Source of the DNA: Pseudomonadota bacterium
GTDB lineage: Bacteria; Pseudomonadota; Gammaproteobacteria; Burkholderiales; Sulfuricellaceae
Length of the DNA: 44,146 nt
Direction of reading: 5' to 3'
NCBI GenBank assembly: GCA_021792335.1
Contig: JAJYUW010000003.1
Span: forward strand, 11,721 to 55,866
Position numbers and translations under genes: made by a program. A model generated the notes under the pieces. It was not told where the DNA came from, ran no database searches, and saw nothing but the letters and a program-made list of their open reading frames with translations. Below, piece after piece: positions 3,766-22,467 of this stretch; positions within the stretch are counted from its first letter, which is position 1; each line of letters begins with the position of its first letter.

Positions 3766-4689
3766 ATGAAAAAAACAAACCCTCAGGTTGGCCATGCCTC
3801 CCACTTTTCAGGACATGAGACCTTTCCGCTCCGGCAAATGTGGCTAAAGAAGGCGTTTGATCAGGCCGGGTCGGATTGGACAGTCCCCAAATCGACCTTC
3901 ACCGACGCCGCCGCGATTTCCGAGTTCGGTGTCGGCAAGAACATGGTGGCGGCTATTCGCCATTGGGCTTTGGCATGCGATGTCCTGCACGACGATTTAC
4001 CCGGCGCCTACTCCGTGTCGCCGACCGCGATTTCGATTTTCACCAACGACGGATTGGATCCCTACTCCGAGAATCCCTCCACCGCTTGGTATGCCCATTG
4101 GTGGCTTGCCGGCCGTGGAAACCGCGCAACGACTTGGTTTTGGCTCTTTAACCACGTCACGATGCCAACGTTTTCACGCGACGAATTGGAAGCACCGTTG
4201 GCCGACTACGCCCGCCGCATAGAGCCCAAACGCAAGCTCTCGGCCTCCACGCTATCGCGTGACATCGAGACCTGCCTTCGCAGCTATGCCCCGCGATTAG
4301 TAGGCGGCTCGCCCGAGGACTTCGCCGAGCCGATGCTCGGGGAGCTCGGTCTCATCAGTGAGGAGCGCAAGGGACATTTCGCATTCCGGCGCGGCCCAAA
4401 GGCGACGCTGCACGACGCCATGTTCGCCTACGCCCTGCTCGACTATTGGGACAGGGCGTCTCCCGGCATCAGCTCAATGGCCTTCGAGACGATTGCCTAC
4501 GGTGAGGGGTCGCCGGGCCGTGTCTTCAAACTCGACGAGGACTCCGTCGCCGAGCGACTGTTCGCGCTCGACGAGCTTACCGGCGGAGTCCTTTCATGGA
4601 CCGACACCGCAGGCCTCAGGCAAGTCCACAGAAAGACATTTGAGAACGAGGGACTATCCTCACTGATGATTAAGAAGTCCTATGGCTGA
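3766..4689 (+). CDS. sspB: SspB-like DUF4007 protein (phosphorothioation nickase subunit)
   Basis: A 307-residue protein that begins with the DUF4007 signature FSGHETFPLRQMWLKKAFD (about residues 14–32), followed by the conserved GVGKNMVAAIRHW segment (about 61–73). In characterised Ssp systems the DUF4007 protein SspB nicks DNA and works with SspC and SspD to install a phosphorothioate in one strand. The gene opens a tight operon: its last 8 nt overlap the ATG of sspC. The start is the first ATG of the conserved block; no strong Shine–Dalgarno precedes it. The family call is secure from the motif; nickase activity is by analogy. No cysteine desulfurase (SspA) gene precedes it. Confidence 0.88.
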   Translation: MKKTNPQVGHASHFSGHETFPLRQMWLKKAFDQAGSDWTVPKSTFTDAAAISEFGVGKNMVAAIRHWALACDVLHDDLPGAYSVSPTAISIFTNDGLDPYSENPSTAWYAHWWLAGRGNRATTWFWLFNHVTMPTFSRDELEAPLADYARRIEPKRKLSASTLSRDIETCLRSYAPRLVGGSPEDFAEPMLGELGLISEERKGHFAFRRGPKATLHDAMFAYALLDYWDRASPGISSMAFETIAYGEGSPGRVFKLDEDSVAERLFALDELTGGVLSWTDTAGLRQVHRKTFENEGLSSLMIKKSYG

Positions 4690-7600
4690 GAGCCCAAACC
4701 CTATGCTTTCGGACATCGTCCGAATCTCACGCCATTACCAACGCTCGATTCGCATCGATGTCGACTTGGGGCGGCCGGACGCTTTGGAGGGATACATCTG
4801 TCATGGCACTGCCATGGCCGCTCTCGACAGCATGTCCAAGCAACTGCGCGACAGCAATCAACGCGCCTTCACATGGACCGGGCCATTCGGAGGCGGCAAG
4901 TCCTCCTTGGCTGTGGCACTTGCCTGTGCACTTGACCCTGACAAAAAACTGCGGGCCAAAGCACGCCAGATTTTGCCATTGGACCGCCTGCCCGCCTTTG
5001 AGAAGGCCCTACCCACCCGTCGCGGGTGGCTGACAGTTCCGGTGGTTGGCAAGCGGGCCAGTGTCGTTCAGGAGATACACAAGGCGCTGATCAAGGGGCT
5101 CGGATTGGCATCCGATTCACGCAAAGTTTCAGCCTCTTCCGTCATTGCCGAGCTGTGCTCCGCCGCCGAGGAAAACCACCTCGACGGAACTCTGCTAATC
5201 ATCGACGAGATGGGCAAGTTCCTAGAAGCCTCGGCATTGGGCTCAGGCGACGATGTCTATTTCTTCCAGGAGCTTGCGGAGGCTGCTGCGCGGGCCAAGG
5301 GAAAGGTTGTCGTCGTCGGCATCCTCCATCAGTCCTTTGGACAATACGCCGCCCGGCTTGGAATCGACACTCGCGACGACTGGTCGAAGATTCAGGGCCG
5401 CTATTCCGACATTCCGCTTGTCGCGGCAAGCGACGAAGTTGTAGAGCTAATTGGCAGGGCAATCGACGCAGATGAGAAACCACAATGGTCTCGCCAAGCG
5501 TCTGAGGCGATAGCCTCCTCGATAAGAACCCGCCGCCCCGCCGTTGGCGAGGGCTTTGCCCGCGCCCTTGACGTCTGCTGGCCGCTGCACCCTGCTATGG
5601 CAGCTCTGCTGGGCCCCATATCAAAGCGTCAGTTCGGCCAGAACGAACGCAGCACCTTCGGCTTTTTATCGTCGGTCGAGCCTTATGGCTTCCGCTCCTA
5701 TTTGCAATCGACACCGAAGATGGACGCTACTTGGTATAGGCCCTCCGACTATTGGGATTACCTGCGCGCCAACCTTGAGCCCGCGATTCTTTCCTCTCCC
5801 GACGGGCACAGATGGGCTCAGGCTGTGGAGGCTGTGGAGCGCGCTGAGGCCAAAACCGACGACCCGCTTCATGTCGGCCTCATAAAGAACATTGCGGTCA
5901 TCGATCTGTTTAGAAACGGGTCGGGACTAGCGGCTGAGTCGGATGTTCTGCGTGCTATCTCCGTCGGCAAGTCGCAGGAGGAAATCGACGCGGCTCTCGA
6001 GCAGCTCGCCAAGTGGCGGGTAACCCTGTTCAAGAAGCATACTGGATCTTGGTCGGTGTTCGAAGGAAGCGACTTCGACATCGACGCGGCGGTGGCCCAA
6101 GCCCGCGCGACTTTGCCGGGTGTCGATTTCAAGCTGCTGTCGAGTCTGTCCGACCTTTATCCGGTCATAGCCAAACGGCATTATCACGAGACGGGAACCT
6201 TCCGCTGGATGGATGTCGCCTTGTGCCGTGCGGAAGACGCCAAGCATGCTGCCGAGAACTTCAAGCCTCAAAAGGGTGAGTTCGGTTTGTTCCTCTTGGC
6301 TCTGCCAGGGAAGACAAAAAGCCTCAAAGCGGCCCTGCGCGAGTGCGGCGCCCATTCAAGGATGAAGCCTTGGCCTGTCGTCATAGGGGTTCCTCCCAAC
6401 CACGCCCGCATCGATGATCTCGGGGCTGAGCTGCTCTCGCTTCAATCCGTCCAGTCACGGCATGAGCTAGGCGGGGACCCGGTCGCGAGACGTGAGGTCC
6501 AAGCCAGGATATCGGCCGTTCGAGCCAATCTTGAGGAGCAGCTTGCCGCCGCTCTCTCGCGCGCGAGCTGGATGGCCGACGACGTAGAGATGCCTTCTGG
6601 CTCACATCTCTCGCAGCTTGCGTCAAGTTTGGCAGACAAGGTCTACTCTGATGCTCCCGGAATATGGAGCGAGCTGGTCAACCGCGACAGCCTATCAAGC
6701 AACAGCGTCAAGGCCCGCCGCGATCTGCTGTGGCGGATGCTCGCCAACGATGAGGAGGAGAACCTCGGCATAGCCGGGTATCCCGCCGAGCGAGGCCTCT
6801 ATGAGACGTTACTGGGAAGCACGGGCCTCCATCGTCAGGATTCAAATGGGGTCTGGCGGTTCATGCCGCCTGACTCCAAGAACGCTCCCGCGTTTCTGAA
6901 ACTTTGGCAGGCGACCCGGGATTTGTTCTCGGATTCCGAGGCCAGAATCAGTGTCGCCGATATTCACGATTTGTGGTCGGCACCCCCGCTTGGTTTGAGG
7001 ACCGGCGTGACACCGGTTATTCTCACGGCCTTCTTGCTCGCCCACAAGGGGAATGTCGCCGCCTACAAGGACGGGATGTTTGTCCCGCGCCTCACCGACG
7101 CCGACATCGACGAGTATCTCCAAGACGCCCGGCGTTTCTCGTTGCGCTGGGTGACCATAGACGAGGAGAAGACGAAAATCCTCTCAGGCATCTCAAAGAT
7201 TCTCAGCGAGGTCGGAGCCTCCTCCGCCGCAAAGGACCCCTTGGAAGCCGCTCGCGGACTTGTTGCTTTGGTTCTTGGATTGCCCGCATGGGTTCAGAGA
7301 ACAGGTTGCCTGAGCCCTGAAGCCCGTTCTGTACGCGACACGCTGCTCAAAGCAAGCGATCCCCACAAGGTATTGTTCGTCGATTTGGCGGCGGTCTTCG
7401 GCGGTGCCGACGGTAAGGAATATGTGAAAGCTCTGCGCGGTCCGGTTCGGGAACTCGCCGAAGCCTATGATGCGCTGCTGAAAAGAATCGAGTCGAGCAT
7501 GCTCGAAGCTCTGGACGCCCCGGCCGACGACTTGGAACGCTTGCAGGTGCGTGCCGAGGCCGTCGCAGGAGTAACCGGTGATCTGCGCCAAGACGCTTTC

Positions 7601-8014
7601 TCCGCCCGTCTTGCCAAGCACGACGGAGGCAGGGAGAGCGTTGAGGGAATTTTGAGCCTTGCCGCCAACAAGCCGCCACGCGACTGGAACGACCGCGACA
7701 TTGATTCCGCCCTGCTTGAAATCGCCCGCTTCGCCCTGCGCTTCCGCCAGTCCGAGGCGTTGGTCTCCGTGAGGGGACGCAAACCCACAAGCGAGGCCTT
7801 CGCCGTTGTGATCGGGGCCGGCCGCCAGACCCAGACGATTTCGCGTGAGTTCGACGTTCCAGACCGCCATCGCGCGAAGGTAGACAGCCTTGCCGCCGAA
7901 CTTGTTGAAAAGCTAAACGCGCAAGGGTTGAGAACCGACGTTCTGATGGCTGTTCTGGCGAAGACTGGGCTGCGACTGGCTCAGGACGAAACCCGGGAGA
8001 AGCCGCTTGGCTGA
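4682..8014 (+). CDS. sspC: SspC-like large P-loop ATPase
   Basis: An 1110-residue protein. A Walker A motif, GPFGGGKSS, sits near residues 67–75 and a Walker B, LLIIDEMGKF, near 170–179, so the N-terminal third is an AAA+/STAND-type ATPase; the rest is mostly helical and not recognisable by eye. Size, operon position between DUF4007 and PP-loop genes, and the early P-loop match SspC, the ATPase of the SspBCD modification complex, which hydrolyses ATP during strand-specific sulfur insertion. It overlaps sspB by 8 nt and sspD by 8 nt, so the three are almost certainly translated together. Codon use and GC resemble the sspFGH genes but not the 9–12 kb genes. Confidence 0.85.
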   Translation: MAESPNPMLSDIVRISRHYQRSIRIDVDLGRPDALEGYICHGTAMAALDSMSKQLRDSNQRAFTWTGPFGGGKSSLAVALACALDPDKKLRAKARQILPLDRLPAFEKALPTRRGWLTVPVVGKRASVVQEIHKALIKGLGLASDSRKVSASSVIAELCSAAEENHLDGTLLIIDEMGKFLEASALGSGDDVYFFQELAEAAARAKGKVVVVGILHQSFGQYAARLGIDTRDDWSKIQGRYSDIPLVAASDEVVELIGRAIDADEKPQWSRQASEAIASSIRTRRPAVGEGFARALDVCWPLHPAMAALLGPISKRQFGQNERSTFGFLSSVEPYGFRSYLQSTPKMDATWYRPSDYWDYLRANLEPAILSSPDGHRWAQAVEAVERAEAKTDDPLHVGLIKNIAVIDLFRNGSGLAAESDVLRAISVGKSQEEIDAALEQLAKWRVTLFKKHTGSWSVFEGSDFDIDAAVAQARATLPGVDFKLLSSLSDLYPVIAKRHYHETGTFRWMDVALCRAEDAKHAAENFKPQKGEFGLFLLALPGKTKSLKAALRECGAHSRMKPWPVVIGVPPNHARIDDLGAELLSLQSVQSRHELGGDPVARREVQARISAVRANLEEQLAAALSRASWMADDVEMPSGSHLSQLASSLADKVYSDAPGIWSELVNRDSLSSNSVKARRDLLWRMLANDEEENLGIAGYPAERGLYETLLGSTGLHRQDSNGVWRFMPPDSKNAPAFLKLWQATRDLFSDSEARISVADIHDLWSAPPLGLRTGVTPVILTAFLLAHKGNVAAYKDGMFVPRLTDADIDEYLQDARRFSLRWVTIDEEKTKILSGISKILSEVGASSAAKDPLEAARGLVALVLGLPAWVQRTGCLSPEARSVRDTLLKASDPHKVLFVDLAAVFGGADGKEYVKALRGPVRELAEAYDALLKRIESSMLEALDAPADDLERLQVRAEAVAGVTGDLRQDAFSARLAKHDGGRESVEGILSLAANKPPRDWNDRDIDSALLEIARFALRFRQSEALVSVRGRKPTSEAFAVVIGAGRQTQTISREFDVPDRHRAKVDSLAAELVEKLNAQGLRTDVLMAVLAKTGLRLAQDETREKPLG

Positions 8015-8846
8015 GAAGCACGTCCTCGGCATTTCCGGTGGTCGCGACAGCGCGGCTCTAGCCGTGTTCATCCGACAAACCAGACCCGAGCTCGATGTCG
8101 ATTACTTCTTCACAGACACAGGCAAGGAGCTTCCGGAGGTCTACGAGTTCCTGGGCCGGTTGGAAGGTTTTCTAGGCAAGCCAATTGCCCGCTTGAACCC
8201 AAGGCGCGGCTTCGATTTCTGGCTCCGCGAATACAACCACTATCTGCCTTCTGCGCAAACCCGCTGGTGCACCCGCCAGTTGAAACTAGCACCGTTTGAG
8301 CAGTGGATTCGCCCGATGCTTGCCTCTGGCGACAAGGTCACGACCTATGTCGCCATTCGCGCCGACGAGGAGTATCGCGAAGGTTACAGCTCAAAGCACG
8401 AGAGGCTGATCGTCAGCCTTCCCTTCCGCGAGGCAGGCATCGACAAGCGCGGCGTGCTGGACATTCTTGACTCATCAGGTGTCGGCCTGCCGAAATACTA
8501 CGACTGGCGTTCACGCAGCGGATGCACATTCTGCTTCTTTCAGCAGAAGATCGAGTGGGTAAGGCTAAGGGAACGCCATCCGGAAGCCTATGAGGAGGCC
8601 AAGGGATACGAGAAAAGCGCCCTTGAGCATGGCTCTCCGTTCACATGGTCGCAGGGCGAACCCTTGAGTGACTTGGAAAAGCCAGAGCGCATCCAGCAAA
8701 TCATTGGGGATTACGAAAAACGCAAGCTGCGTGATCTAAAAAAACGTCCGGTGAATCCGCTACGCCCAATCGAAAACATCGTCGACATCGACGATCTATA
8801 TGGCGAAGACGAAGGCGGCGGCGCCTGCGTGGTTTGCCATAAATGA
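8007..8846 (+). CDS. sspD: SspD/DndC-like PP-loop sulfurtransferase (PAPS-reductase family)
   Basis: A 279-residue protein. The ATP-pyrophosphatase P-loop SGGRDS is at residues 10–15. Cysteines at 88 (RWCTRQLKL) and at 173/176 (SGCTFC) match the arrangement expected for a DndC-like Fe–S or sulfur-handling site, and a further C-x2-C pair lies at the extreme C-terminus (274/277). SspD and DndC adenylate the DNA backbone and transfer sulfur from a cysteine desulfurase. The start is a TTG at 8007 that overlaps the sspC stop by 8 nt and is preceded by GGGAGA; no better start exists. As no SspA is present, the persulfide donor is probably the host IscS (inference). Confidence 0.88.
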   Translation: MAEKHVLGISGGRDSAALAVFIRQTRPELDVDYFFTDTGKELPEVYEFLGRLEGFLGKPIARLNPRRGFDFWLREYNHYLPSAQTRWCTRQLKLAPFEQWIRPMLASGDKVTTYVAIRADEEYREGYSSKHERLIVSLPFREAGIDKRGVLDILDSSGVGLPKYYDWRSRSGCTFCFFQQKIEWVRLRERHPEAYEEAKGYEKSALEHGSPFTWSQGEPLSDLEKPERIQQIIGDYEKRKLRDLKKRPVNPLRPIENIVDIDDLYGEDEGGGACVVCHK

Positions 8847-8886: not shown

Positions 8887-8924
8887 CAAGATTCTAATCT
8901 TGTACCTAGAAATGCATTTTGCAT
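8887..8924. promoter_or_regulatory. Two operator-like palindromes before the GIY-YIG/dndB-like pair
   Basis: A perfect palindrome, CAAGATT-CT-AATCTTG, occupies 8887–8902. A second, ATGCA-TTT-TGCAT, is at 8912–8924. Both sit just upstream of a −10-like TACAAT (8926–8931) with TTGTAC at 8900–8905 (spacer 20 nt, too long for an ideal promoter). The downstream operon encodes a DndB-like protein, a family known to repress dnd operons, so autoregulation here is plausible. Confidence 0.45.
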
Positions 8925-8956
8925 CTACAATTGCTCCATAATTAGGAGCCACAATA

Positions 8957-9478
8957 TTGGATCTCACGTCACTTATTGACTTCGCCGACGAAGCGGAGGC
9001 CGAAATCGGGAAGTATCGCGTTGAGTTGACCCTTTCACCAAGCAAGCTGGGCTTCAGCCCGTATTGCGTGCCTAATCTCACTTGGCAAAGCATTAAATAC
9101 GGAGAAGCTGAACTACATCTCGTTCCAGACGACAAACGAGGCATATATGCGTTCGCCATTTGCGAACCAAGCGCAGTGCTTCCACCACATGGTTACATTC
9201 TTTACATTGGGATAGCGGGAAGAAACTCTACGCGGTCTCTGCGTGATCGTTACAAAGATTATCTCAATGCAAAGAAGGTAATGAAGCGCGCTCGCATCGC
9301 TTACATGATTGGAACATGGCATAAAGTCCTGCGCTTCTTTTTCGTTCCCGTTGATGACGCGATGACGTCAGCCGATTTAGAGACACTAGAGAAGCAGCTT
9401 AATACGGCCCTCCTTCCTCCATTCTCCCAAGGCGACCTCGAAGCAGAAACTAAGATCAACCGAAGGGCATTCAAATGA
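8957..9478 (+). CDS. GIY-YIG-fold putative nuclease
   Basis: A 173-residue protein with a GIY-YIG-like core: GIY at residues 62–64, YIG at 83–85 after a β-strand, a basic SLRDRYKDYL helix (about 94–103) with candidate catalytic arginines, and a glutamate in LEKQLNTALLPPF (E145), the usual order of the superfamily. Residues 1–60 are not recognised. The start is TTG 8957 with AGGAG spaced about 8 nt upstream. The stop overlaps the next gene's ATG by 4 nt (ATGA), so it is coupled to the DGQHR gene. GC is clearly lower than in sspBCD. It may be an added restriction nuclease. Activity is unproven, and the fold call rests on motifs only. Confidence 0.7.
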   Translation: MDLTSLIDFADEAEAEIGKYRVELTLSPSKLGFSPYCVPNLTWQSIKYGEAELHLVPDDKRGIYAFAICEPSAVLPPHGYILYIGIAGRNSTRSLRDRYKDYLNAKKVMKRARIAYMIGTWHKVLRFFFVPVDDAMTSADLETLEKQLNTALLPPFSQGDLEAETKINRRAFK

Positions 9479-10731
9479 CAAACACTGCCGGAAAACTTAC
9501 TCTGCCCGCGCTTCGCGGAATCATGGGCGATTGGGTTTATTACTCATGCCTGATGAATCTTGTAGAGCTGGGCAAGCGGGTTCACTATGCCCAAGATATC
9601 CATAAGAGCCAGCAACTGTCAGACTTGATTCAAAGGCAGTTGAAAAAAAGTAGAAGCGTCCAGATTGCCAGTTATTTGAAGACCCAACCAGAGCGCTTTT
9701 TCAATTCTCTTGTTATCGCGACATATGGCGGTCAGCCCAACTGGCGCGCGATATCCAGTGTCAGGTCCAAATCTGCAAATGATGATCTTGGCGCGCTAGA
9801 ACCAGAAACGCTAGAGTCAGTCGGATTTCTAACGCTGCGTGGAGATGAAAATCTCTTCGCGCTTGATGGGCAACACAGACTTGCTGGAATTAAGAAAGCT
9901 ATCTCGGATGGCTTGGACCAGGATCCGGTTGACGAGGTATCAGTGATATTCGTCGCGTACAAAGCCAATTCAAAGGGGCTTGAGCGAACTAGGCGGCTAT
10001 TCACAACGCTAAATAAGACAGCAAGGCCAGTTTCGAAAGGCGACATTATCGCGTTAGACGAAGATGACGTTATGGCGATCTGCGTAAGGCGGCTTATTGA
10101 AGAGACTGAACTCTTTTCTGGCAACAAAATAGCTTTCACAGCGAGCAACAACATGCCCTCTACCAATACGGAAAGCTTAACGACTATCGGTAATCTCTAC
10201 GACGTCTTGACGATTCTATTTACCGAAGTGCAGTCGGATTTGCGGAAACAAAGGAGCGAACTCCTGAAGGCTCGGCCAGAAGATGAAGACCTAGACAAGT
10301 ATTTCAAATTCGCACACAACTACTTTGTTCTCATGCGCAAGAGCTTCGCTGAAATCGACGAATTCTTTGCGGCGGACAACCCTGAGGTTGTTGTCAAGAA
10401 ATATCGTGGAAGTCATGGAGGAAAAGCGATCTTCAGGCCACTCGGACTCGAAATGTATACTCGCATTATTGCGCGACTGACGAAAGAGATGTCACGTGGT
10501 GAAGCGGTGAAGGTTGTAGCCAAACTTCCTCGAGATCTGACTGTTGCTCCATTTCTCGGCCTGATGTGGGATTCAAATAACAACACTATTAGCAATGCTC
10601 ATAAGGTCACATTGCGTGAAGTTCTCTTGTATATGACGGGCTACTCGAAGTATTCCGACGCCAATCTGCTTGGGCGGTATCGCAAGGAACTTGGCGACGA
10701 AAAAGCCGTATTGCCTAAAAAGGTAATTTAG
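9475..10731 (+). CDS. DndB-like DGQHR-domain protein
   Basis: A 418-residue protein containing the family signature LDGQHRLAGI (DGQHR at residues 131–135) and the downstream hallmark RRLFTTLNKTARPVSKGDIIALDEDD. DGQHR proteins include DndB, the transcriptional repressor of Dnd phosphorothioation operons, and relatives scattered through mobile islands. SspABCD systems normally lack DndB, so its presence beside an SspBCD module is unusual. It is coupled by a 4-nt overlap to the GIY-YIG gene and ends head-on against the nuclease gene on the other strand, 36 nt away. It could repress its own cassette or the whole island, or may act on DNA as another DGQHR subfamily; the sequence alone does not decide. 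Confidence 0.82.
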   Translation: MTNTAGKLTLPALRGIMGDWVYYSCLMNLVELGKRVHYAQDIHKSQQLSDLIQRQLKKSRSVQIASYLKTQPERFFNSLVIATYGGQPNWRAISSVRSKSANDDLGALEPETLESVGFLTLRGDENLFALDGQHRLAGIKKAISDGLDQDPVDEVSVIFVAYKANSKGLERTRRLFTTLNKTARPVSKGDIIALDEDDVMAICVRRLIEETELFSGNKIAFTASNNMPSTNTESLTTIGNLYDVLTILFTEVQSDLRKQRSELLKARPEDEDLDKYFKFAHNYFVLMRKSFAEIDEFFAADNPEVVVKKYRGSHGGKAIFRPLGLEMYTRIIARLTKEMSRGEAVKVVAKLPRDLTVAPFLGLMWDSNNNTISNAHKVTLREVLLYMTGYSKYSDANLLGRYRKELGDEKAVLPKKVI

Positions 10732-10767: not shown

Positions 10768-12204
10768 CTAAATTTCCCGTTCCTTTTGAACAACAAGATC
10801 AGAAAAACGGGCAAGCAAATCGAGATTAAGTCGAAGCCTTGACTCAATCTGCGCGCGATCCCACCAGTCGGTCCAAGTCCCGCGACGAGCTAGAGCGACA
10901 AGGTGTTCTACAAGCGAATTAGCAGGCTGGGGGAACGCTACAAGGAAATAGCCTTCGGCGTCGTGGCGCTCGATGGTGTCCCGAATGTCGACCACTTTGG
11001 CCTTGCCCACTGAGGGCTGGTGTGCCTTTACCTGCACGACGATGCTCTTCAGTATCGCAGGTTCAGGGATACCATTCGATGCGGAGCCATCCAACCCGTG
11101 CCCAGAAGAAATTAGCCAACGCGCAATAAAGTCCCGCCCCCCATCGCGTTCACGAGTAGGGCCAGCTTGCCGAACCCAAGCCACGCCTTTTTCTCGCTCT
11201 AGGAGCGCGTAAACAAGGTCTTCAAAGCGTCCGCCGTCGATTCTTTCTGTCCACTCAAATGCATAGTCGACCGAGAATACGGCATTCTCAGCAGATCGTC
11301 GCACAAGAAACTTTGTCCGTTCCGTTTCGAATGAGCGGATGCCGCAATCTGCCGCAATAGCGACGATAGATTGCATCCCGACAAAGACGCAATGAGATTC
11401 AAGCGGTATGAGCGCTATGGCCTTATCAAGAGGGGCTGATCCCGCTCCTTTCCATGGCAGCGAGGATTCTGGCTCGATACTTCGCAGCAACCGCAGACCG
11501 CTAGAAATAGTCCGATGCGCGACAGCGTTCTTCAGCCCGCTTCCGACGATTGACACTCTTGATCGTCCACTCACACATACTGGATCGTAAGCTGCAAGTG
11601 CCACGCGGAACGCGGCAGCTCTTGCCGGAGGAAGAATTGCAACCGTAATGCCATTGGCGAGCGATTTGGCGTAATACCAGTCGGGACACTCACGAATCCC
11701 TGCCATGTCATCAAAGTCAGTAAAACTCCCACTGGAATTCAGAGCATCAACAAGCTCCTTGGCACCGTTAGTCCACCTAGCCTGTGGATACATGATGTCG
11801 CCCCACCCTACGACGTCATCTAGGGCGTGGAAAGCGAACGCCGTATGCGCAAGAATTTTCGCCTTAGGTGGATTTGGATCACTTAAATCGCCAACCTGAT
11901 CAAAGATCAGCCATCTAGCGTAGATCTCACCCGGTATAGGGACAAACCCAGCCTCATCCACCAGCCTCGTTGATGCCGCGCCATTGGCCCTTAAAACACA
12001 CGCCCAAAACAACGATAGCAGATCGTGTGCGTCGGTGCGCCCTCCGCAGCCGTCCATCTGGTATGAATTCGTTCGCAAATATCCAAATGTTATCGAACCC
12101 TGATCAGTCTGTTGCTCTGCCACTTTTAGCGGATAGTGGTCCTCCTGCGCACACGGCTGCTGCATCACATAAGTATGCAGGCGGGAGAACATTTTTTCCT
12201 TCAT
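10768..12204 (-). CDS. Mrr-like restriction endonuclease
   Basis: A 478-residue protein. The C-terminal region (about residues 315–430) carries a PD-(D/E)XK nuclease of the Mrr_cat type: a helix with FEDLVYALLE, then RDGGRDF (about 352–358), then VVQVKAH with the Q-x-K form (about 387–393). A closing WWDRAQIESRL…LARFSDL helix follows. Residues 1–310 are not recognised and may be the target-recognition part. The ATG at 12204 overlaps the sspH stop by 4 nt (ATGA), so it is the fourth gene of the sspFGH operon by translation. Its GC content is visibly lower than that of sspH and changes abruptly at this overlap. A fourth restriction subunit or a modification-dependent nuclease are both possible. 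Confidence 0.78.
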   Translation of the reverse strand: MKEKMFSRLHTYVMQQPCAQEDHYPLKVAEQQTDQGSITFGYLRTNSYQMDGCGGRTDAHDLLSLFWACVLRANGAASTRLVDEAGFVPIPGEIYARWLIFDQVGDLSDPNPPKAKILAHTAFAFHALDDVVGWGDIMYPQARWTNGAKELVDALNSSGSFTDFDDMAGIRECPDWYYAKSLANGITVAILPPARAAAFRVALAAYDPVCVSGRSRVSIVGSGLKNAVAHRTISSGLRLLRSIEPESSLPWKGAGSAPLDKAIALIPLESHCVFVGMQSIVAIAADCGIRSFETERTKFLVRRSAENAVFSVDYAFEWTERIDGGRFEDLVYALLEREKGVAWVRQAGPTRERDGGRDFIARWLISSGHGLDGSASNGIPEPAILKSIVVQVKAHQPSVGKAKVVDIRDTIERHDAEGYFLVAFPQPANSLVEHLVALARRGTWTDWWDRAQIESRLRLNLDLLARFSDLVVQKEREI

Positions 12205-15200
12205 CCGGGGGGCAAAACTTCTGGCGCGCCATCTGAACGAATCGCCTCTACGGCTTGGGCGATGTCGTCGTCGCTGAGGAATGGAGCTTGGGCGAACACC
12301 AGTCCCTGCTCGCCATTCAACTTTGCGGCCAGGTGTCCCTTGCCTAGTAATAGCTCAGCTCCCGGTCGGTCGAGCGCGATCTTCGAAGTCGCCTCGCTAG
12401 CAACTTTCAGAATCAGACGGTTGCCAAGGTTCTCCCGCAGCTGCATCGGCATCACGTCCTTGTCCGGCCGCTGTGCTGCGAAAATCAGGTGGATGCCGGC
12501 GGCCCGCGCCTTGACGCCAAGCCTCTGGACAGCGGAGCTGACTGCGTTCTTGTAGGCGTCGTCGAACATCCAGTCAGCGAATTCGTCGTGTATTAGAAAT
12601 ACCATCGGCAGCCGGTTTTCAGGAGCTGATTTCGCGTTGTATGTCGGCAAGTCGCGAGCCCGCGTCTCAGAGAAGATCCGATACCTGTTCTCCATTTCCT
12701 CGACAAGGCTTGCCAGGATCTCGGCCGAGCGTTCCTTAGTCGTCACAATCTTCTCGCGCATGTGCGGAAGGTCTTCTAAGGCCGAGTAGTCGACACCCAT
12801 CTTGGGATCGATGAGTACCATCTGGGCGAGCTCCTTTGGATTGGTGGCCGCGATATCGAGAATCATGGCCTGGATGAGGACCGACTTTCCGCTGCCTGTC
12901 GTTCCGGCCACAAGCGAATGCGGGTCGTGGGCGGCCAATCCGCCGAATTCTCCGCCGAGGTTGAGATAGAGCAACGCTCCATTGATTTCCTGCACACCAA
13001 GCAAGATGGAGGTATTGATGCCGGCGGCGTTTCTGTTCAGGGTCCGCCTTGCCCACAAGCCCCAAAGCGAGACAGACTGCCTCTTGGAGCCGGCGATGGT
13101 GATGACGATCTCTCCCGGCTTTGGCTGGACGGTGACCAGGTTGATGGCATGCGTGGTCAATAGCTGCATGCGTTTGGCCTCGACGTCCTCGACGCGCAGG
13201 CGATCCGAACCTGCGAGCCTGACCAGACATCCGTTCGGCGTGAGCCGAGTCGCAAGTACCGCCGCTTGAAGCCCGTATCCGTTGAGGGCGGCTTTGAGCT
13301 TGCGCGTTGTCTCCTGCGCCCACTCCTCGCGCTCGTCGGTGGCGGCCGACAGTCCCGCCGTCTTTGACGCGACAAGGGTATTGAGGCTTGCGCCGAATGC
13401 GGTGGCCTCCGGCTGTGCATGCGCGCTGATTGGCGCTTCCAGTTCGGTGGCCGGCGCCTCGGAAGTCGGGGTGGCAGGCGGCATCACTTCCGTCGGCGCG
13501 ACATCCGCGGCAAGCGCGGGGCTTGTTGCAAGAAGCTCGATCATCGCACCCCAGGCGACACGCGGTGCAGGAAGTTGGGGCGTGGCGGAAAGCCAAGGCT
13601 GCGCGGGTCCGAGCTTTGAGCGGATTGTCGTCGGATCTTCCTTGCGGGCGTAGGACTCGACCAAAAGCCTGAGCTCGTTGCGCTCGAAAACCTCCTGCCA
13701 TGCTTGGATGCCGTCGGTGTCGTCGACCAGGTGCTGCTCGGAGGCCGAAGGCCCGGCGGGGTCTGTGGAATGGACGAAGACATGCGAATAGCCGCGCAGG
13801 GAGATTCCGGCTTCCCCGTCGCGCAGCTTCGCCCGCGCCCGCTCCAAGAGGCCCGAGCAACCGGGTGGGATGTCGGCATCGACGAGCAGGTCGGCAAGCC
13901 GCGAGAGCCAAACGTCGCGGTCGAGCCGACCGGGATCGCCGAACAAGGCTGCCCGAAAAGTAGAGAGCGTCGCCATCAACTGCGCCTTCGAGGAACGCCG
14001 GGCCTCAGCTGCTCCGTTGGCCGCGACATATTTTGACTCGATGACGGCCACATGTAGTATCGGCCCCTCCTCACCTTCCTCAACGCAAAGGCCCAGGATA
14101 TCGGCGATGCGGCTTTCCTTTTGCGCGAGCCAGTCTGCATAGTCGTCCAGGAGGAAGAAGACGCTGAAAGCCGCCCGTTTTCTGGAGCCTGATATGACCT
14201 TGAACTCCTCTTCGAGGAGATGACGGCTCATGACAAGCCCAATCATCTCCCCGGCCGAAATGCCGCGCTTTGCGGCCCGCAGAACGATGTCACCAGACAC
14301 CGACAGGGCGTCTTTCTTCATCCGGTCGGCCAGGGCCGAGAGTTCTTCGCCGGACAGTGGAAGGCCCAACTCGCCGAGCCTGCGCCTGGCGAGAACCCCA
14401 AGCAGCCGAAGTTCGGATGTGGAGCTGACGATGGTGTTGCGGCCGTTGGTGGAGGTCCTGCGGTAGCGGACTACCGTGACTCCGTTTGCTTGAAGTTGGC
14501 GCTTGTCCAAAAGCTCGTCGTAGGTGGCGACCCATTCGGCGAGGGCGTGCGCGTCGTCGAGGGTGGCCTTCAATGTCTCGTTTTGAAGCGAGATGCGCCG
14601 CGCCGGCAACAATTGCGTTCCGGCCGTGGCGTCGGTCTGCCGCACCACCGACGCGACAGCTCCGACATAGGCCCAGCCTGAGGCTGTCTGACGCGGGCAG
14701 GTCAGGAAGGTCGTGGATTTGAGCTCGTTCTCGCCTGACACGCTACGGTATGACCAACGTGACGGAGCATGCTCCAGAGTGGGCCGTTCGTTGGTCCAGT
14801 CGACTGGGATCCATTCCACCGCTGCGGTTCTCGAAACGACATCGTGGAGGAAGGCGACATCGAAGGCCCGGAATCCATCGCTTGCCCGAGGAGGCGTTGA
14901 AGAAGGCGGAGCAACCGAGATGCGAAGTTTCGACATGAAGTTCTGGCTCGTCTCGCTCACCACCGGCAAGTCCGGGTCATCGCCGGTCTTGGTGACAAGC
15001 TCAGCGTAGACGCGCCTGAGCTTTGCAGGGTCGCGGTGGCGCACAGAGACATTGCACTGGAAATCAGTCTCAGTCTGCATGCCCGACAGCTCGCGCACGA
15101 CCGCCAGCGGCAGCTCTGCAGCGTCTGCGTTGTAGAGAAGCACGCTCAGATTCGACGCCTCGTGTGGCTGCAATCCGATATACCGCTCCATCAACTCGCG

Positions 15201-17591
15201 CGCTTGCTTAGCAGCGGCGGCCGGATCGACATCGGTGAGGGAGTCGTCGGAGCCGCGCACTGGCCGCTCAAGCAGGCTGTATCCGTTGACGGTGCTGCTC
15301 TCGCAGACGAGGATCGGAGTTCCGCCCTTGTTGGCCGCCGCTATCTCCGGATAATACGGATGGGCGAGCTCCTCCGAAAACTCACGGAAGAAGATCCCCC
15401 TGTCGCCGAAGAGCACTTTCTTCCCGTTGAGGATGTGGGTCACAAGACCCGCGACGCGGCGGGTTTTCACCGCGAGGGCCTTCATGCGCTCGGGATGCCA
15501 GGGCGGGATGATCACCGACGGCTGCTCGCCTGAGACTTTCACCGTTCCGATGGACAGCACCTCGGCGACAAGCTCCGAGCGGCATATGTCACCGCGCGCG
15601 TGGATCGCCAGCGCGCGAAGCAGCGCAGCGAAGGAGTCGGCCTGCCGCAACACCGCCTCGCCATGGAGTCCCGTTTTTATGAAGTCTTCCAAGGCAAGGA
15701 TGTAGTCTTCCTCGAAGGTTTCCCATGAGGCCCGAAGCTCGGCGCGCTGCTCCTCGGAAATGCGTCCCTTGACGGCGAGATCGTCTATCCTGCGCTTAAT
15801 GTCGGCCCGCATGCTTTTCAGCTGCTTCGACTGCGGAACCAGTGAACCGGCGTCGTGCGAATAGGTGGCCTCCAAAGTGGCGGTGTCCAAAAGGGACACG
15901 CTCTGCACCCCACCCTTCTTGCTGACAAGGCGTCTTGGAACCTCTGTACAGCCCACGGAACCCTTCTCTTGGAGACGCCGCATGTCGTCGATCAGCGAAA
16001 GCCCTATGGAGTCAGGACGGTATAGCCACAGCAGCTGCGTCTTCTCCAGGATGGTCTCGTCTGCGCCCTTCTTTTCAACAAGGGAGACTTCAAACTTTAT
16101 CTGGACGGAATTTTTCGCAAGCGAGGTGCATGGCTTGAACTTGTCCTTGCGGATTTCCTTCTCGCGGACCAAAAAAGCGGGATGATCGAACAGTGGGTCG
16201 GGCAGGTTTCCCGCCCCCATCCGTTCGACGCGCCATTCGACGCGTCCGTTCATAAGCTCTTTGAGGCCGCGATACATCGCCGAGAAGAACGCCCCGACGT
16301 CCTGGTTGTGGCGCTCTCTCCAAACGGTGCGGCCTTTGGTGACGGTGAAACGCAGTACACGCTCGCCCTGCGGCTCCGCTGCCCCTGCCACAAGGTGGTG
16401 AGCGACGCTGGCAAAGCCGTCGAGGAAATCATGGCATTCGATGGGCTTGCCGAATACCACCTTTTCCCAACGTGCGTGCAGCTTCGTGTTTTTCTCTATG
16501 TAGCGGCGGTGGAGCTCGAAGAACACCTCATCATCATCGTTCCAGTCGGATCGCTTTTCCCGGGCGCGCAATCCTTCAAGGTGTTTGCGCCATTCGGCGT
16601 CGAGCACATCTGGGTCGTCGCAGTCGTGGTCGAAAAAATAGATGGTTGCGTCGGCTAGGCCCTGCTGGCGCTCACGGGGCTTGTCGAAGATGAGGTGGAC
16701 TCCGTCCTTTTCCCACTCAAGGGCCATGACCTCAGCGGAGGTCAGCTCGTCGCCTGGCTGCGCGTTGATGAACGCGAGAAGGACTTCCCTTGCGTGATCC
16801 TGTATAGCTTCGGCGTTCTCGTCGAGGCGCTGGCGCAGCTCCTCTGGATCAAGCGGCTGGCCGTTAGGCCGCATCTTGGAGAGAAGCGGGAAGCGGTTCG
16901 CGAAGAGTTTCTCGAACACCTTGCGCCAAGGCGCGACGGCCGCCCCATAGGTCTTGGAGCTTGAGAAAAACGATGTGTCGCGGGGCAGCCCGACATAAGG
17001 CAAAGCCCAGCCGATGGCGTCGCGAATCGGATGTCCATGGGCCGTGGTGGCCTCCCCGGCCAAAGCACAAAACTCTCCGAGCTGGTTGAGCGAGAGCTCC
17101 GAGGCGCCCATCAGGCCCCTGAGGGCGGCGCGAAAGACAGCCCGGTCCTCAGGCGTCGGGGCGATGCCGGCAACATGGCAGGTCGCCTCCACCCAGGACT
17201 CCTCGTGCGACCTGAACTCCTTGGCGCCCAATGCGGTCACATGCCCCAGCGTGTCCGCCAGATTGTGCTCGTTGCCGTTGGCGGTGAGCAGCGCCTCCTT
17301 GGTGGTGCCAGAGTTGCGAACCTCCCCTGCATTCATCTGTGTGAGGGCCTCAGGCGGAAGCCCCTCGTCCTTGACCAAGGGTTCTGGAATCTTCAAATCC
17401 ACCCGCGCGGCAAGGTCCGGGTTGTCGAGGATCTCGCGGACTATCGACGCTATCTGGGCAGGTGCAAGCTTGTCGAGACGAAACATGGCAGCGGAGTCAG
17501 GCAGCGAGCCGTCGCTTTGCCGTGAGTCGGCGAGGCGGCGCTGAAGGATGTCCGCGCCGACGCGGCCGATGATTCTATCTGTCCGCATCAT
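12201..17591 (-). CDS. sspH: SspH/DptH-like restriction protein with FtsK-type motor
   Basis: A very large protein (1796 residues) whose only recognisable domain is at the C-terminus: an FtsK/HerA-type translocase with Walker A GTTGSGKS near residue 1563, a DPKMGVDYSALEDL segment, and a Walker B-like LIHDEFADW near 1665. Length, C-terminal motor and position after two overlapping genes match DptH/SspH, the motor subunit of phosphorothioate-dependent restriction. The start chosen is ATG 17591, which overlaps the sspG stop as ATGA and has GGGAGAGG just upstream; a longer frame to 17633 lacks such a site. The N-terminal 1500 residues probably hold DNA-binding and assembly parts but show no motif I can name. 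Confidence 0.85.
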   Translation of the reverse strand: MMRTDRIIGRVGADILQRRLADSRQSDGSLPDSAAMFRLDKLAPAQIASIVREILDNPDLAARVDLKIPEPLVKDEGLPPEALTQMNAGEVRNSGTTKEALLTANGNEHNLADTLGHVTALGAKEFRSHEESWVEATCHVAGIAPTPEDRAVFRAALRGLMGASELSLNQLGEFCALAGEATTAHGHPIRDAIGWALPYVGLPRDTSFFSSSKTYGAAVAPWRKVFEKLFANRFPLLSKMRPNGQPLDPEELRQRLDENAEAIQDHAREVLLAFINAQPGDELTSAEVMALEWEKDGVHLIFDKPRERQQGLADATIYFFDHDCDDPDVLDAEWRKHLEGLRAREKRSDWNDDDEVFFELHRRYIEKNTKLHARWEKVVFGKPIECHDFLDGFASVAHHLVAGAAEPQGERVLRFTVTKGRTVWRERHNQDVGAFFSAMYRGLKELMNGRVEWRVERMGAGNLPDPLFDHPAFLVREKEIRKDKFKPCTSLAKNSVQIKFEVSLVEKKGADETILEKTQLLWLYRPDSIGLSLIDDMRRLQEKGSVGCTEVPRRLVSKKGGVQSVSLLDTATLEATYSHDAGSLVPQSKQLKSMRADIKRRIDDLAVKGRISEEQRAELRASWETFEEDYILALEDFIKTGLHGEAVLRQADSFAALLRALAIHARGDICRSELVAEVLSIGTVKVSGEQPSVIIPPWHPERMKALAVKTRRVAGLVTHILNGKKVLFGDRGIFFREFSEELAHPYYPEIAAANKGGTPILVCESSTVNGYSLLERPVRGSDDSLTDVDPAAAAKQARELMERYIGLQPHEASNLSVLLYNADAAELPLAVVRELSGMQTETDFQCNVSVRHRDPAKLRRVYAELVTKTGDDPDLPVVSETSQNFMSKLRISVAPPSSTPPRASDGFRAFDVAFLHDVVSRTAAVEWIPVDWTNERPTLEHAPSRWSYRSVSGENELKSTTFLTCPRQTASGWAYVGAVASVVRQTDATAGTQLLPARRISLQNETLKATLDDAHALAEWVATYDELLDKRQLQANGVTVVRYRRTSTNGRNTIVSSTSELRLLGVLARRRLGELGLPLSGEELSALADRMKKDALSVSGDIVLRAAKRGISAGEMIGLVMSRHLLEEEFKVISGSRKRAAFSVFFLLDDYADWLAQKESRIADILGLCVEEGEEGPILHVAVIESKYVAANGAAEARRSSKAQLMATLSTFRAALFGDPGRLDRDVWLSRLADLLVDADIPPGCSGLLERARAKLRDGEAGISLRGYSHVFVHSTDPAGPSASEQHLVDDTDGIQAWQEVFERNELRLLVESYARKEDPTTIRSKLGPAQPWLSATPQLPAPRVAWGAMIELLATSPALAADVAPTEVMPPATPTSEAPATELEAPISAHAQPEATAFGASLNTLVASKTAGLSAATDEREEWAQETTRKLKAALNGYGLQAAVLATRLTPNGCLVRLAGSDRLRVEDVEAKRMQLLTTHAINLVTVQPKPGEIVITIAGSKRQSVSLWGLWARRTLNRNAAGINTSILLGVQEINGALLYLNLGGEFGGLAAHDPHSLVAGTTGSGKSVLIQAMILDIAATNPKELAQMVLIDPKMGVDYSALEDLPHMREKIVTTKERSAEILASLVEEMENRYRIFSETRARDLPTYNAKSAPENRLPMVFLIHDEFADWMFDDAYKNAVSSAVQRLGVKARAAGIHLIFAAQRPDKDVMPMQLRENLGNRLILKVASEATSKIALDRPGAELLLGKGHLAAKLNGEQGLVFAQAPFLSDDDIAQAVEAIRSDGAPEVLPPG

Positions 17592-19108
17592 ACCTCTCCC
17601 TTGGAGACGAACGGATTCTCGACAAAGGAGCACGAATCTGAGAGCCTTCTGACCAATCCAAGCCCGACAAGGCGGGTTTCAAGGTTTCCGCGGTTGTCGC
17701 TGAGAGCGTCCTGGTCTACTGTCTTGGCGCGCACCAAGTGGGCTCCTTCGGCATCGCCGATGACAAGGCCGTAGCGGGCACGGACCTCGTGGAGAAACTC
17801 GTCAAACTGCATGCGGTCCTCGACGATGGACACGACCAATGTCTTCAACAGGCGGTCGTTCGGCGCGTATCGGTTGCGCCTCGACAGTCGCCGGGAGCTC
17901 AGGCCTATTGAGCGCGACCAGGCTGCATGGATCTTCCCGAAATGGCCTTCGTGGCGGGTTTCCGCCTTGTCCGCAAGCATCCGGACAAGCTCGTCTCCTG
18001 TCATTTTCTCGTAGTCGGTCTCATCGTCGGTGTCCACAGGAGGCCACTGAAACCAAGCCCTCATCAAACAGAGGCGCTCGCCGTCAGGATCGTCGGTCTC
18101 GGCAGCTTTTGCCCATTCGTCGCAGAGCCTGATTTGCTCGACCGCAGCGCGCACGGCGCGAAGCGACAATGATTGGTTTGCCTGGTAGGAGTCGCCTGAG
18201 AGCGCCCTGACTTTGGTGCGCTCTCGGGAGACGATTTCGCACACGAGCTCCACTGGCTCAGCATCCCCGACTTGCGTCTTCGCTCGTTCCAAGAAATACA
18301 GGAGCATATTGAGGCCGGCGCTGGCGATCAGATGCTCCAGCGCGTCATATATGGGCATGTCCCGCGAGAGGATCGCAAGCCAGTCGTCACAGAGCCTGTC
18401 AAAGCGGGGGTTGGATGCCTGGGGGAGATATCCGACATCCTTGGCTTCGGAAAATTGCGGCTTTCCTTGCAAAGTCCTGGCAAGGCGGTTCATCGGGGCA
18501 GACACGTTAAAGAGCCGCCCGATAAGCTTTTCTCCAAGCTCCGATCCGCGCTCTGCCCGGCAAAGCATCAAATACAAGAGCTCTCCGGTGCGCCCAAAAA
18601 ACAGCCTGTCGTTGGAGGCTTTTCCACCGACGACCCTCAAATCCTCGTATAGGGCGTCCGGTCCGAAGGGGAAGACGAACTTTGAGCTCCAACGTTTGTT
18701 GCTGCGCGCTTCGAAGGCCGAAGAACGCAGCAGTTCGATGGCCTTGGCGAAATCGTCGAAGGAGAGAAACGCCCGGCGCAGGTATTCCATGTCGGCGTCG
18801 TCGATCTCGGTGGCGTCCAAGGCGAAACGGGTCTTCCACTCCCTCCACTTGTCCTCATCGGGCAAAGACTTCTCGCGAATCGACTCCACATATGGGTTGT
18901 TGAACAACAGCCCCCGCAGCTTCATCTGCCGCTGCGGCCGATAGCTCACCTGCTCGTTGGGCGCCGCCTTCAGCGGGTTGTCGGCGTTAGAACCGAGCAC
19001 CCCCAGAAATTCCAGAACCGTGAGATGTGGAAGCTGGGCGTCGTGGAGACGATGGCCCCAGATGTGCTCGTCGACCGCGTAGTCGACTCCGTCAATCTTT
19101 GGTCTCAC
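17588..19108 (-). CDS. sspG: SspG/DptG-like restriction subunit
   Basis: A 506-residue protein with no clear catalytic motif. It is charged and mostly helical, with a conserved-looking core YLPQASNPRFDRLCDDWLAIL and several cysteines that do not form an obvious metal site. The call rests on gene order: it overlaps sspF by 4 nt upstream and sspH by 4 nt downstream, exactly where DptG/SspG lies in known systems, and its length fits. In those systems this subunit is needed for DNA damage in unmodified DNA. Identification from context is fairly strong, from sequence alone weak. Confidence 0.68.
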   Translation of the reverse strand: MRPKIDGVDYAVDEHIWGHRLHDAQLPHLTVLEFLGVLGSNADNPLKAAPNEQVSYRPQRQMKLRGLLFNNPYVESIREKSLPDEDKWREWKTRFALDATEIDDADMEYLRRAFLSFDDFAKAIELLRSSAFEARSNKRWSSKFVFPFGPDALYEDLRVVGGKASNDRLFFGRTGELLYLMLCRAERGSELGEKLIGRLFNVSAPMNRLARTLQGKPQFSEAKDVGYLPQASNPRFDRLCDDWLAILSRDMPIYDALEHLIASAGLNMLLYFLERAKTQVGDAEPVELVCEIVSRERTKVRALSGDSYQANQSLSLRAVRAAVEQIRLCDEWAKAAETDDPDGERLCLMRAWFQWPPVDTDDETDYEKMTGDELVRMLADKAETRHEGHFGKIHAAWSRSIGLSSRRLSRRNRYAPNDRLLKTLVVSIVEDRMQFDEFLHEVRARYGLVIGDAEGAHLVRAKTVDQDALSDNRGNLETRLVGLGLVRRLSDSCSFVENPFVSKGEV

Positions 19109-21009
19109 GAGCCTGTCCTCACGGTGATGGGCCGCGAGAATCCGTGGCCGTTTTGCTCTATCTCGATGAAGTTGAGTGTCAGGGCTCCATTATCCTCACT
19201 GGGCTCCTCGTCGTCATGTGAGAGTCGCTCAATACGCAGCAGCTCGGCCTTGCGAAGCAGCTTCGCTTTGAAGGCGAGCATGTCCTCCAAGCACTCGTTC
19301 GAAAAGCTTCCCGGCAGCGCGCCTTCAGCGACCCGGCAGAGAAACTCGAAACGCACAGGGGAAAGGTTGAATGTCGTCGAACCGCCCTCTCCCTGCGCAA
19401 GCGACACGCCCAATGCCGGTCTCTCGGTCAGGGCGTCGATCTTGACGGACATGCCAACACCACCGACGCGACGTGCAGGAGCCTCGGTGTCGCAAAGGAC
19501 ACTGATCCTCGACTGGGTGAAGCCGCCGGAGCTCGCGACGAAAACCCTGTCGTTGTTCTCGATGAGAAGGCCGGTCATCACGCGATTGAGCCCCCGCACC
19601 ATGCGAGCCCGCACTGTCTCGTCGACTGGCTTGCGCTCAGCGAGCGCGGCGGACATGTTCAGGTAGTCGCCAGCGAAACGGAACGCCGTCATGTCCCAGA
19701 ACGGATAGTCGCGCTCGTCATCGGGCAAGGTAAAAAAAAGCCTGCGTCTTTGGGTCTCAAGGCGCGCGAGGAAATCTGCCGCGCCTCCGTCGATTCGGGC
19801 GATCTCTTCGCCTTCAAGATATCGCAGCTGCGCTGCCAGATAGGATGGGGTAGCGCCGTATGCGGAATCTGCTTTGACCAGCCTGTTGAATGCATCCAAA
19901 AGGTTGCCGTCGTCGGCGCCGTATACGAGCAAGCCGTCGGCCCCGTTGGATGTTTCCTCGCCGATGCCGAAGGTGGCAAGGGCCCGGAACACCTGATGGT
20001 CGTTCGCGCGCTTGCGCGGCAGGTTGACTCCGAAAACATTGTCGTAGATGGAACCGTTTTCAGTCTTTCCGGCTTCCTGGATCTTGGCCACATCGGCGCA
20101 AGACAAAAGACCCTCCCGTGCGTCCTTGTGGCCGAGGATCATGTTCGCCGTCAGAGCGAGCAGGTCACGCACGGGAAGGTGCCAGCCGTTGAGCCTTGCG
20201 ACTTCGACGAGATCGCCAAGGCGTCTCACGAAGCGTCCCCTATCAGTTGCGCCAAGCAGCCGTTCCCTGTTCTCGTATATTGGACACAGGCGCTCAGGAG
20301 AGCGCAGAGAACATTTGGCGCAGTTCTCCCATTCCGCGTGTCCCGCGACTGCAGAGAGAACCTCGTCGAGCGAATGCCTGCGTGCGGTCCGGCTCAAATC
20401 GAATATAGCAAGTCGCTCAGGCGCTTTGCTGGCAAGCAGGAAGGCGTCCTGTAAAGGTTTTCTGAGAGGATGGACCCGCCCCTGCCGCAGTCCGAGGTTC
20501 CGAAGGCGCTCCAAGATTTGGCCATGGTTGGCGGCCACGACCAGGAACTGCTTGTTCTCCTCGCCAAGGACTGAGCGTTCTAGTAATTCCAGAACTTCGT
20601 CGCTTTTGCGCTCGTCGCTGACTGCGCTGAGGTCTTTCACAAACACGGCGATGCGCCCGTCGGCCAGGGCCAGCGTTTTCACGGGAGCGGAGATAAGCCA
20701 TTCACAGGGGTCGCCACCAAGTGCTCCCCACAGGCTGCGGCAGTGGTAGGTCTTTCCATCCCCGGCGGTTCCCGCAATGAGAAGCGAACCGTGTGCACCC
20801 GATTCCACCCTTAGCCGCATTTCTTCAAGCTGTGGGCTATCAAGGGTTATCGGCTGAACCTTTGCCCGGCCAATGGCTCCGACGACATATTCGTCAAAAA
20901 GTGTGAGGTCGTTTGGCGTGGGGCCGTATGAGCGCAGAAAGCGCACCCACGCTCCGGCAGGGACGGCACCAGCATCTTGGCTGGAAGGAGTAGCACTCAT
21001 CGGCAACAT
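19105..21009 (-). CDS. sspF: SspF/DptF-like ATPase of phosphorothioate-dependent restriction
   Basis: A protein of about 634 residues opening the restriction operon. Walker A GTAGDGKT lies at about residues 80–87 and a hydrophobic strand ending in VFVKDLSAVSDERKSD follows. A C-x2-C…C cluster (NCAKCSLRSPERLCPIY) sits near the middle, as in DptF-type ATPases. It probably senses or licenses the SspGH complex. The start is uncertain: ATG 21009 is followed by another ATG at 21000, while the open frame extends to a TTG at 21078. None has a strong ribosome site. The stop overlaps sspG by 4 nt. A −10-like TATAAT lies about 95 bp upstream of the chosen start. Confidence 0.8.
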   Translation of the reverse strand: MLPMSATPSSQDAGAVPAGAWVRFLRSYGPTPNDLTLFDEYVVGAIGRAKVQPITLDSPQLEEMRLRVESGAHGSLLIAGTAGDGKTYHCRSLWGALGGDPCEWLISAPVKTLALADGRIAVFVKDLSAVSDERKSDEVLELLERSVLGEENKQFLVVAANHGQILERLRNLGLRQGRVHPLRKPLQDAFLLASKAPERLAIFDLSRTARRHSLDEVLSAVAGHAEWENCAKCSLRSPERLCPIYENRERLLGATDRGRFVRRLGDLVEVARLNGWHLPVRDLLALTANMILGHKDAREGLLSCADVAKIQEAGKTENGSIYDNVFGVNLPRKRANDHQVFRALATFGIGEETSNGADGLLVYGADDGNLLDAFNRLVKADSAYGATPSYLAAQLRYLEGEEIARIDGGAADFLARLETQRRRLFFTLPDDERDYPFWDMTAFRFAGDYLNMSAALAERKPVDETVRARMVRGLNRVMTGLLIENNDRVFVASSGGFTQSRISVLCDTEAPARRVGGVGMSVKIDALTERPALGVSLAQGEGGSTTFNLSPVRFEFLCRVAEGALPGSFSNECLEDMLAFKAKLLRKAELLRIERLSHDDEEPSEDNGALTLNFIEIEQNGHGFSRPITVRTGS

Positions 21010-21101
21010 CCAATTCTTGTTATGAAGGAGGAAGCCTCCCCGGCTTGCTCGACTGTCCCTCCGTCCGCACGCCGTCAAACATTTGGCTGAGACAATGGCA
21101 T

Positions 21102-22390: not shown

Positions 22391-22467
22391 TGGTCGGGGT
22401 GAGAGGATTCGAACCTCCGGCCTCTGCGTCCCGAACGCAGCGCTCTACCAGGCTAAGCTACACCCCG
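22391..22467 (-). tRNA. tRNA-Pro (anticodon CGG)
   Basis: A full cloverleaf on the minus strand: acceptor CGGGGTG pairs with CACCCCG, D-arm GCTTAGCCTGGTAGAGC, anticodon stem CTGCG/CGCAG around the loop TTCGGGA (anticodon CGG), T-arm with TTCGAAT, and an encoded CCA. It is the integration target; after insertion the gene is still intact because the island carries the replaced 3' part (22391–22436). It lies 52 nt downstream of ispB on the same strand. Confidence 0.97.

Follow-up and report, generated by a model that had tools for sequence, protein, structure and literature searches.

Two overlapping genes, encoding a GIY-YIG-fold protein and a DndB-family protein with a DGQHR motif, form a conserved pair that lies in a phosphorothioate (PT) defence locus of the window, i.e., the whole 44,146-nt stretch of DNA analysed here. 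We propose, with a probability of about one half, that the pair encodes one two-subunit anti-phage effector, an optional accessory of PT systems in which the DGQHR NTPase would gate the GIY-YIG nuclease. The cassette is probably an uncharacterised anti-phage add-on, recurring with unrelated PT systems and in prophages. Among publications on DGQHR and on DndB with GIY-YIG, searched mostly outside the subscription journals, no description of this pair was found.

The locus around the pair

The window contains an SspBCD-SspFGH PT defence locus, in which all six Ssp proteins, recognised with PADLOC profiles, are encoded together. The features are as follows.

3766..4689, + strand: SspB (DUF4007; PADLOC SspB 1e-112, PF13182 4e-89)
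4682..8014, + strand: SspC, ATPase (PADLOC SspC, 1440 bits)
8007..8846, + strand: SspD, PAPS-reductase-like sulfur transferase (PADLOC SspD 3e-137)
8945..8951, + strand: putative Shine-Dalgarno-like AGGAG 5' of the TTG start of the GIY-YIG gene, read from the sequence
8957..9478, + strand: GIY-YIG-fold protein, 173 residues; predicted catalytic residues Y64, Y83, R98, Y102, and E145, with S157 at the position of the UvrC Asn
9475..10731, + strand: DGQHR protein (DndB family, ParB/Srx-like), 418 residues (PF14072 2e-25, TIGR03187 5e-33, alignments)
10768..12204, - strand: putative restriction endonuclease with an Mrr_cat domain, 478 residues, grouped with sspFGH on the opposite strand (PF04471 2.5e-7)
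12201..17633, - strand: SspH, with an FtsK-like C-terminus (PADLOC SspH, 2435 bits)
17588..19108, - strand: SspG (PADLOC SspG 2e-213)
19105..21078, - strand: SspF (PADLOC SspF 5e-232)
22391-22467: tRNA-Pro gene

The genes sspBCD are thus followed by the GIY-YIG/DGQHR pair on the + strand, and the Mrr_cat gene and sspFGH lie beyond it on the - strand. The mrr gene is located directly 3' of sspH, on the same strand and with a 4-nt overlap, giving the order sspF-sspG-sspH-mrr. No sspA gene was found in the window or in the 11.7 kb upstream; the published system of Vibrio FF-93 likewise has no sspA and works with the housekeeping IscS (PMC8092258).

The GIY-YIG gene starts with TTG, preceded by the AGGAG at 8-9 nt and by an in-frame stop at 8939. 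The 110-nt gap that separates it from sspD harbors imperfect inverted repeats, TTGTA...TACAA, around AAATGCATTT at 8893-8945. These repeats are a possible promoter or operator, and they show no obvious conservation in other loci.

The GIY-YIG protein

The first-pass annotation had read GIY at residues 62-64, YIG at 83-85, a basic helix, and E145 in this protein, and all four are found at these positions, with R98 and Y102 in the helix. An alignment of 20 family members (the window protein plus 19 relatives taken from public genomes; 25-72% identity) displays G62, Y64, Y83, G85, L95, R98, Y102, E145, and P154 as invariant. When prophage copies and UvrC are included, the invariant columns are Y64, Y83, G85, R98, Y102, E145, and P154, with R98 and E145 kept in every GIY-YIG member, those of prophages among them.

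Curated models (Pfam, NCBIfam, PADLOC) gave no match for the window protein, and GIY_YIG_2 reached a sub-threshold E-value of 0.049 for one of its relatives. A PDB search with the single sequence returned noise only, and a profile search with the family brought up UvrC at an E-value of 0.39. Aligned directly by hhalign with the UvrC GIY-YIG domains of related genomes, the family profile matched at 93% probability (E 2.6e-7), against 0.05% for the reversed profile and 0.08% for the DGQHR profile used as controls. The motif pattern therefore exceeds what is expected by chance. In this alignment, GIY is matched by GVY and YIG by YVG, and the Arg and Glu of UvrC stand opposite R98 and E145, respectively. 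Small GIY-YIG proteins of the YhbQ type were considered as relatives and discarded, their profile match being absent (about 1% in hhalign).

The AlphaFold2 model has a mean pLDDT of 78, with most core blocks above 80. It shows strands at residues 62-68, 80-87, and 125-131, helices at 95-103 and 112-124, and a helix carrying E145 at 138-152; the three-stranded GIY-YIG core, on which the initial reading depended, is thus present in the predicted fold. Among the PDB matches listed, the only one above 0.1 probability is T4 endonuclease II (T4 EndoII), a GIY-YIG enzyme (0.77, E 0.13). The named viral structures matched with high probability are mostly phage or intron-associated endonucleases, together with one GIY-YIG domain protein. 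Comparison with known GIY-YIG nucleases hence gives the same answer from the UvrC profile and from the structures, and the GIY-YIG fold of the 173-residue protein is established at the level of sequence profiles and predicted structure.

The predicted active site is intact, except for the usual Asn. At this position, which follows the Glu helix in UvrC, the window protein has Ser157, and its relatives have Asn (L003, L004, L020, L024, L028), Ser, Thr, or, in the prophage copies, Cys.

The DGQHR protein

The partner belongs to the DndB family (PF14072 2e-25; TIGR03187 5e-33), far below the cut-off of the DndB equivalog model TIGR03233 (57 versus 328 bits). Its signature is that of PF14072/TIGR03187 with DGQHR, not that of DUF262 with DGQQR. 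The family alignment displays three invariant motifs, I52-Q53-R54, D131-GQHR-135, and F176-xxx-N180. GmrS is described as carrying the same three motifs, QR, a DGQHR-type motif, and FxxxN, and DUF262 as homologous to DGQHR domains (Machnicka et al., PMC4619093); DndB itself is presented as a ParB-type enzyme in PMC10853773. The predicted structure of the window protein is of limited quality and its match to ParB is weak (probability 0.33), so that the ParB assignment relies on the motifs and on this literature.

Coupling of the two genes

The overlap of the two genes noticed at first pass is real: it comprises 4 nt (ATGA) and leads into the ORF 9475-10731. Junctions overlapping by 1-4 nt are found in 22 of the 24 loci checked, and the stop and start codons overlap in both prophage contigs as well. 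From either gene as query, the GIY-YIG gene lies directly 5' of this DGQHR subfamily in all 27 loci found. Searches based on the GIY-YIG protein found a DGQHR gene next to it in every locus, and searches with DGQHR only reached an integrative element of Salmonella Infantis, IMG/VR prophage contigs, and a Mesorhizobium genome, all with a GIY-YIG gene directly upstream. Furthermore, 299 genomes contain 17 places with DndB-family genes, two of which belong to this subfamily and have the GIY-YIG gene; the other 15 are devoid of it. A pair that the first-pass annotation called unusual is thus, across the genomes surveyed, a fixed one, restricted to one DGQHR subfamily. Pairwise distances of the two proteins are closely correlated (r=0.95, n=19 loci). 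Fixed pairing, translational coupling through the gene overlap, subfamily specificity, and this correlation are together strong signs that the two proteins constitute one functional unit.

Two loci have one gene of the pair split. In the Salmonella Infantis element (L028, 15001-16198), a frame change near 15135 breaks up the DGQHR gene, so that this pair may be inactive; DndI and most of the dnd genes seem intact. In L014 (7338-7890), the two parts of the GIY-YIG gene lie in different frames, reflecting an assembly error or a pseudogene, next to an intact DGQHR gene.

Occurrence of the pair

Because the survey relied on a single restrictive peptide pattern and a single draw of genomes, its counts are lower bounds. 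It yielded 27 loci, 15 with Ssp and seven with Dnd modification genes near the pair (22/27 together). The remaining ones are two loci with an SspD-like protein and a cysteine desulfurase, one short contig that does not allow a judgement, and two P2-like prophages. Eleven of the 15 Ssp loci have the pair immediately 3' of sspD, on the same strand and at most 110 nt away.

The pair is accompanied by SspFGH in the window and in L003, L007, and L009, by a helicase/HATPase/PLD trio in L002, L005, L008, L013, L015, and L024, by PbeA/PbeC-like genes in L006 and L011 (PbeC in L022), and by DndI in the Dnd loci L023 and L028. This last coexistence rules out the pair as a strict replacement of SspE. No DUF262 protein was found within the retrieved stretches of the Ssp loci that carry the pair. 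Because nearly all loci possess another restriction module (SspFGH, Pbe-like, or PLD-HATPase-helicase), with DndI in two Dnd loci, the pair is not needed as the sole effector.

Several of these neighbourhoods display features of their own. The trio, a DEAD/DEAH helicase, a HATPase protein, and a PLD-family nuclease (L002, 11477-15901), adjoins the Ssp genes and the pair in all six loci and seems to constitute an additional restriction module in Ssp loci. L019 (8261-9793) contains a 510-residue ORF, beside DndC, DndD, and the pair, with an N-terminus matching DndE and the rest matching DndH/HerA, a possible DndE-HerA fusion. L016 (12083-14655) and L017 (10685-13260) each encode an SspD-like protein of 471 residues and a cysteine desulfurase, with no recognisable SspB or SspC, and may represent a variant PT system. 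The two genes of L017 are adjoined by a PDC-M33A-like gene.

Among 11 sspD loci sampled from 399 genomes, a single one, that of the window, carries the pair no more than 1.5 kb away. Most sampled sspBCD loci have no pair, which therefore is an optional accessory and not a core part. Known effectors are also rare among 2,678 published sspBCD loci, with sspFGH at 7.3% and sspE at 7.4%, most loci having neither (PMC8092258).

Distances among SspB, SspC, and SspD are tightly correlated with each other (r 0.91-0.98). Those of the pair to SspBCD are correlated at r 0.31-0.42, not significantly, with L024 included, and at 0.57-0.72 without it. Full independence of the pair from SspBCD, which seemed clear with L024, no longer holds once L024 is left out, and no more than a partial exchange of the pair is proposed.

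In E. coli, the pair occurs in 2 of 5,426 genomes. The prophage pair is inserted between the portal gene (gpQ) and the replication gene A (gpA) of a P2-like prophage, an interval known as an antiviral hotspot (Rousset et al., PMC9122126). PT modification genes are absent within the stretch retrieved around the two prophage copies. A PT role was considered and set aside for the PAPS-reductase gene beside gpA, a gene present in 44 E. coli genomes versus 2 with the pair. Scans of viral contigs gave no match with the GIY-YIG profile, and matches were found with the DGQHR profile. The earlier suggestion that the pair might be a separate module thus holds if a portable accessory cassette is meant, as the P2-like prophage copies without a PT system nearby illustrate, but not if a free-standing one is meant, since the pair of the window follows the sspBCD genes of a PT locus.

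Proposed function and alternatives

According to the two-subunit effector model, the DGQHR protein, with a ParB/Srx-type fold and with QR, DGQHR, and FxxxN motifs that have counterparts in the DUF262 NTPase domains of GmrS, SspE, and DndI, would bind and hydrolyse NTP and read the PT state of DNA. It would associate with the GIY-YIG nuclease to restrain or recruit it, and the latter would nick or cut DNA judged non-self, restricting the phage. This mode would be similar to that of SspE and DndI, in which a DGQQR NTPase is fused to an HNH nickase, but with two chains and a GIY-YIG nuclease. In these two proteins, a ParB-like DUF262 domain with DGQQR hydrolyses NTP, senses PT, and controls the nickase (PMC9646914; PMC11662687). 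The same two predicted activities can be assigned to the pair because the DGQHR family keeps QR, DGQHR, and FxxxN and a DUF262-DGQHR homology has been reported. The PT-sensing residues are Y30/Q31 in SspE (PMC9646914) and Y25 in DndI (PMC11662687); in our own reading of the sequences they appear to lie within or beside the QR motif, and YQR is visible in the 9jfl alignment. PT sensing may not be general, since PT modification genes are missing from the stretch retrieved around either prophage copy. In favour of the effector model are the GIY-YIG assignment, the fixed pairing and its subfamily specificity, the Ssp or Dnd context, the precedent of SspE and DndI, and the antiviral hotspot of the prophage copies. 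Counted against it are the other restriction modules of nearly all loci, the weak ParB match (0.33), the Ser at the UvrC Asn position, and the rarity of the pair among sspD loci.

Other functions may be envisaged. DndB has been reported as a regulator of PT modification (PMC10853773; PMC4507180), and the pair forms the tail of the sspBCD operon in most Ssp loci instead of being part of the restriction module. It might thus be regulatory, the DGQHR protein repressing or limiting PT insertion in a DndB-like, ATP-modulated manner and its GIY-YIG partner nicking DNA or removing over-modified strands, which would tune PT density. We consider this unlikely: three Dnd loci with the pair (L004, L021, L028) encode a canonical DndB as well, the scarcity of the pair among sspBCD loci misfits a needed regulator, and the prophage copies have no PT genes nearby. 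It is rather improbable that the GIY-YIG protein is a back-up or suicide nuclease, degrading DNA once the main PT restriction module fails and inhibited or triggered by the DGQHR protein. A role as suicide effectors has been suggested for standalone URI (GIY-YIG) nucleases lying at the boundaries of Dnd loci (PMC10853773), and the pair does co-occur with other restriction modules, but its GIY-YIG gene is one half of a fixed, coupled pair, not a lone boundary gene.

The prophage copies of the gpQ-gpA hotspot, together with the pair of L024, which does not track its SspBCD, bring up a PT-independent, type IV-like defence module merely travelling in defence islands and prophages. This is the most doubtful of the readings, given the modification genes near the pair in 22 of 27 loci, its same-strand position immediately after sspD in 11 of 15 Ssp loci, and the correlation with SspBCD (r=0.57-0.72) without L024. 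The effector model, if true, would describe a conserved pair of nuclease and NTPase moving between Ssp and Dnd systems and into prophages, and would imply that different nucleases can be driven by a ParB-like NTPase that senses PT. The pair is a small target of two genes, in which nuclease and NTPase residues can be tested singly.

Comparison with known systems

The GIY-YIG protein shares its fold and the catalytic residues Y, Y, R, Y, and E with the N-terminal GIY-YIG domain of UvrC and with T4 endonuclease II. It differs from them by its N-terminal region (residues 1-56), longer connections between strands, and the Ser at the Asn position. The URI/GIY-YIG nucleases of Dnd neighbourhoods belong to the same superfamily and are also found near PT modification genes; they are, however, standalone genes at locus boundaries, and the accessible text of PMC10853773 mentions neither a fixed DGQHR partner nor an Ssp context for them. 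The DGQHR protein, for its part, shares with DndB the PF14072 family and the motifs QR, DGQHR, and FxxxN, but the two are only about 20% identical and canonical DndB has no adjoining GIY-YIG gene.

The two-gene form of the type IV system GmrSD also has separate ParB/Srx-like NTPase and nuclease subunits. In contrast to the pair, its nuclease is of the HNH type, its NTPase is a DUF262 protein, its target is glucosylated hmC, and it has no link with PT. SspE (SspABCD-SspE) and DndI (IscS-DndBCDE-DndI) are, like the pair, PT-linked, lie beside sspBCD or dnd genes, and couple a ParB-like NTPase domain carrying DGQ-x-R and QR to a nuclease. Each of these is a single polypeptide, DUF262 (DGQQR) followed by a C-terminal DUF1524 HNH nickase, whereas the pair consists of two genes, one of the DGQHR/DndB type and one GIY-YIG. 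Tentatively, the pair might represent a third class among the effectors that sense PT. It would be a split GIY-YIG counterpart of SspE and DndI, could be attached to PT systems of the single-strand (Ssp) as well as the double-strand (Dnd) type, and would serve as a stand-alone weapon in P2-like prophages.
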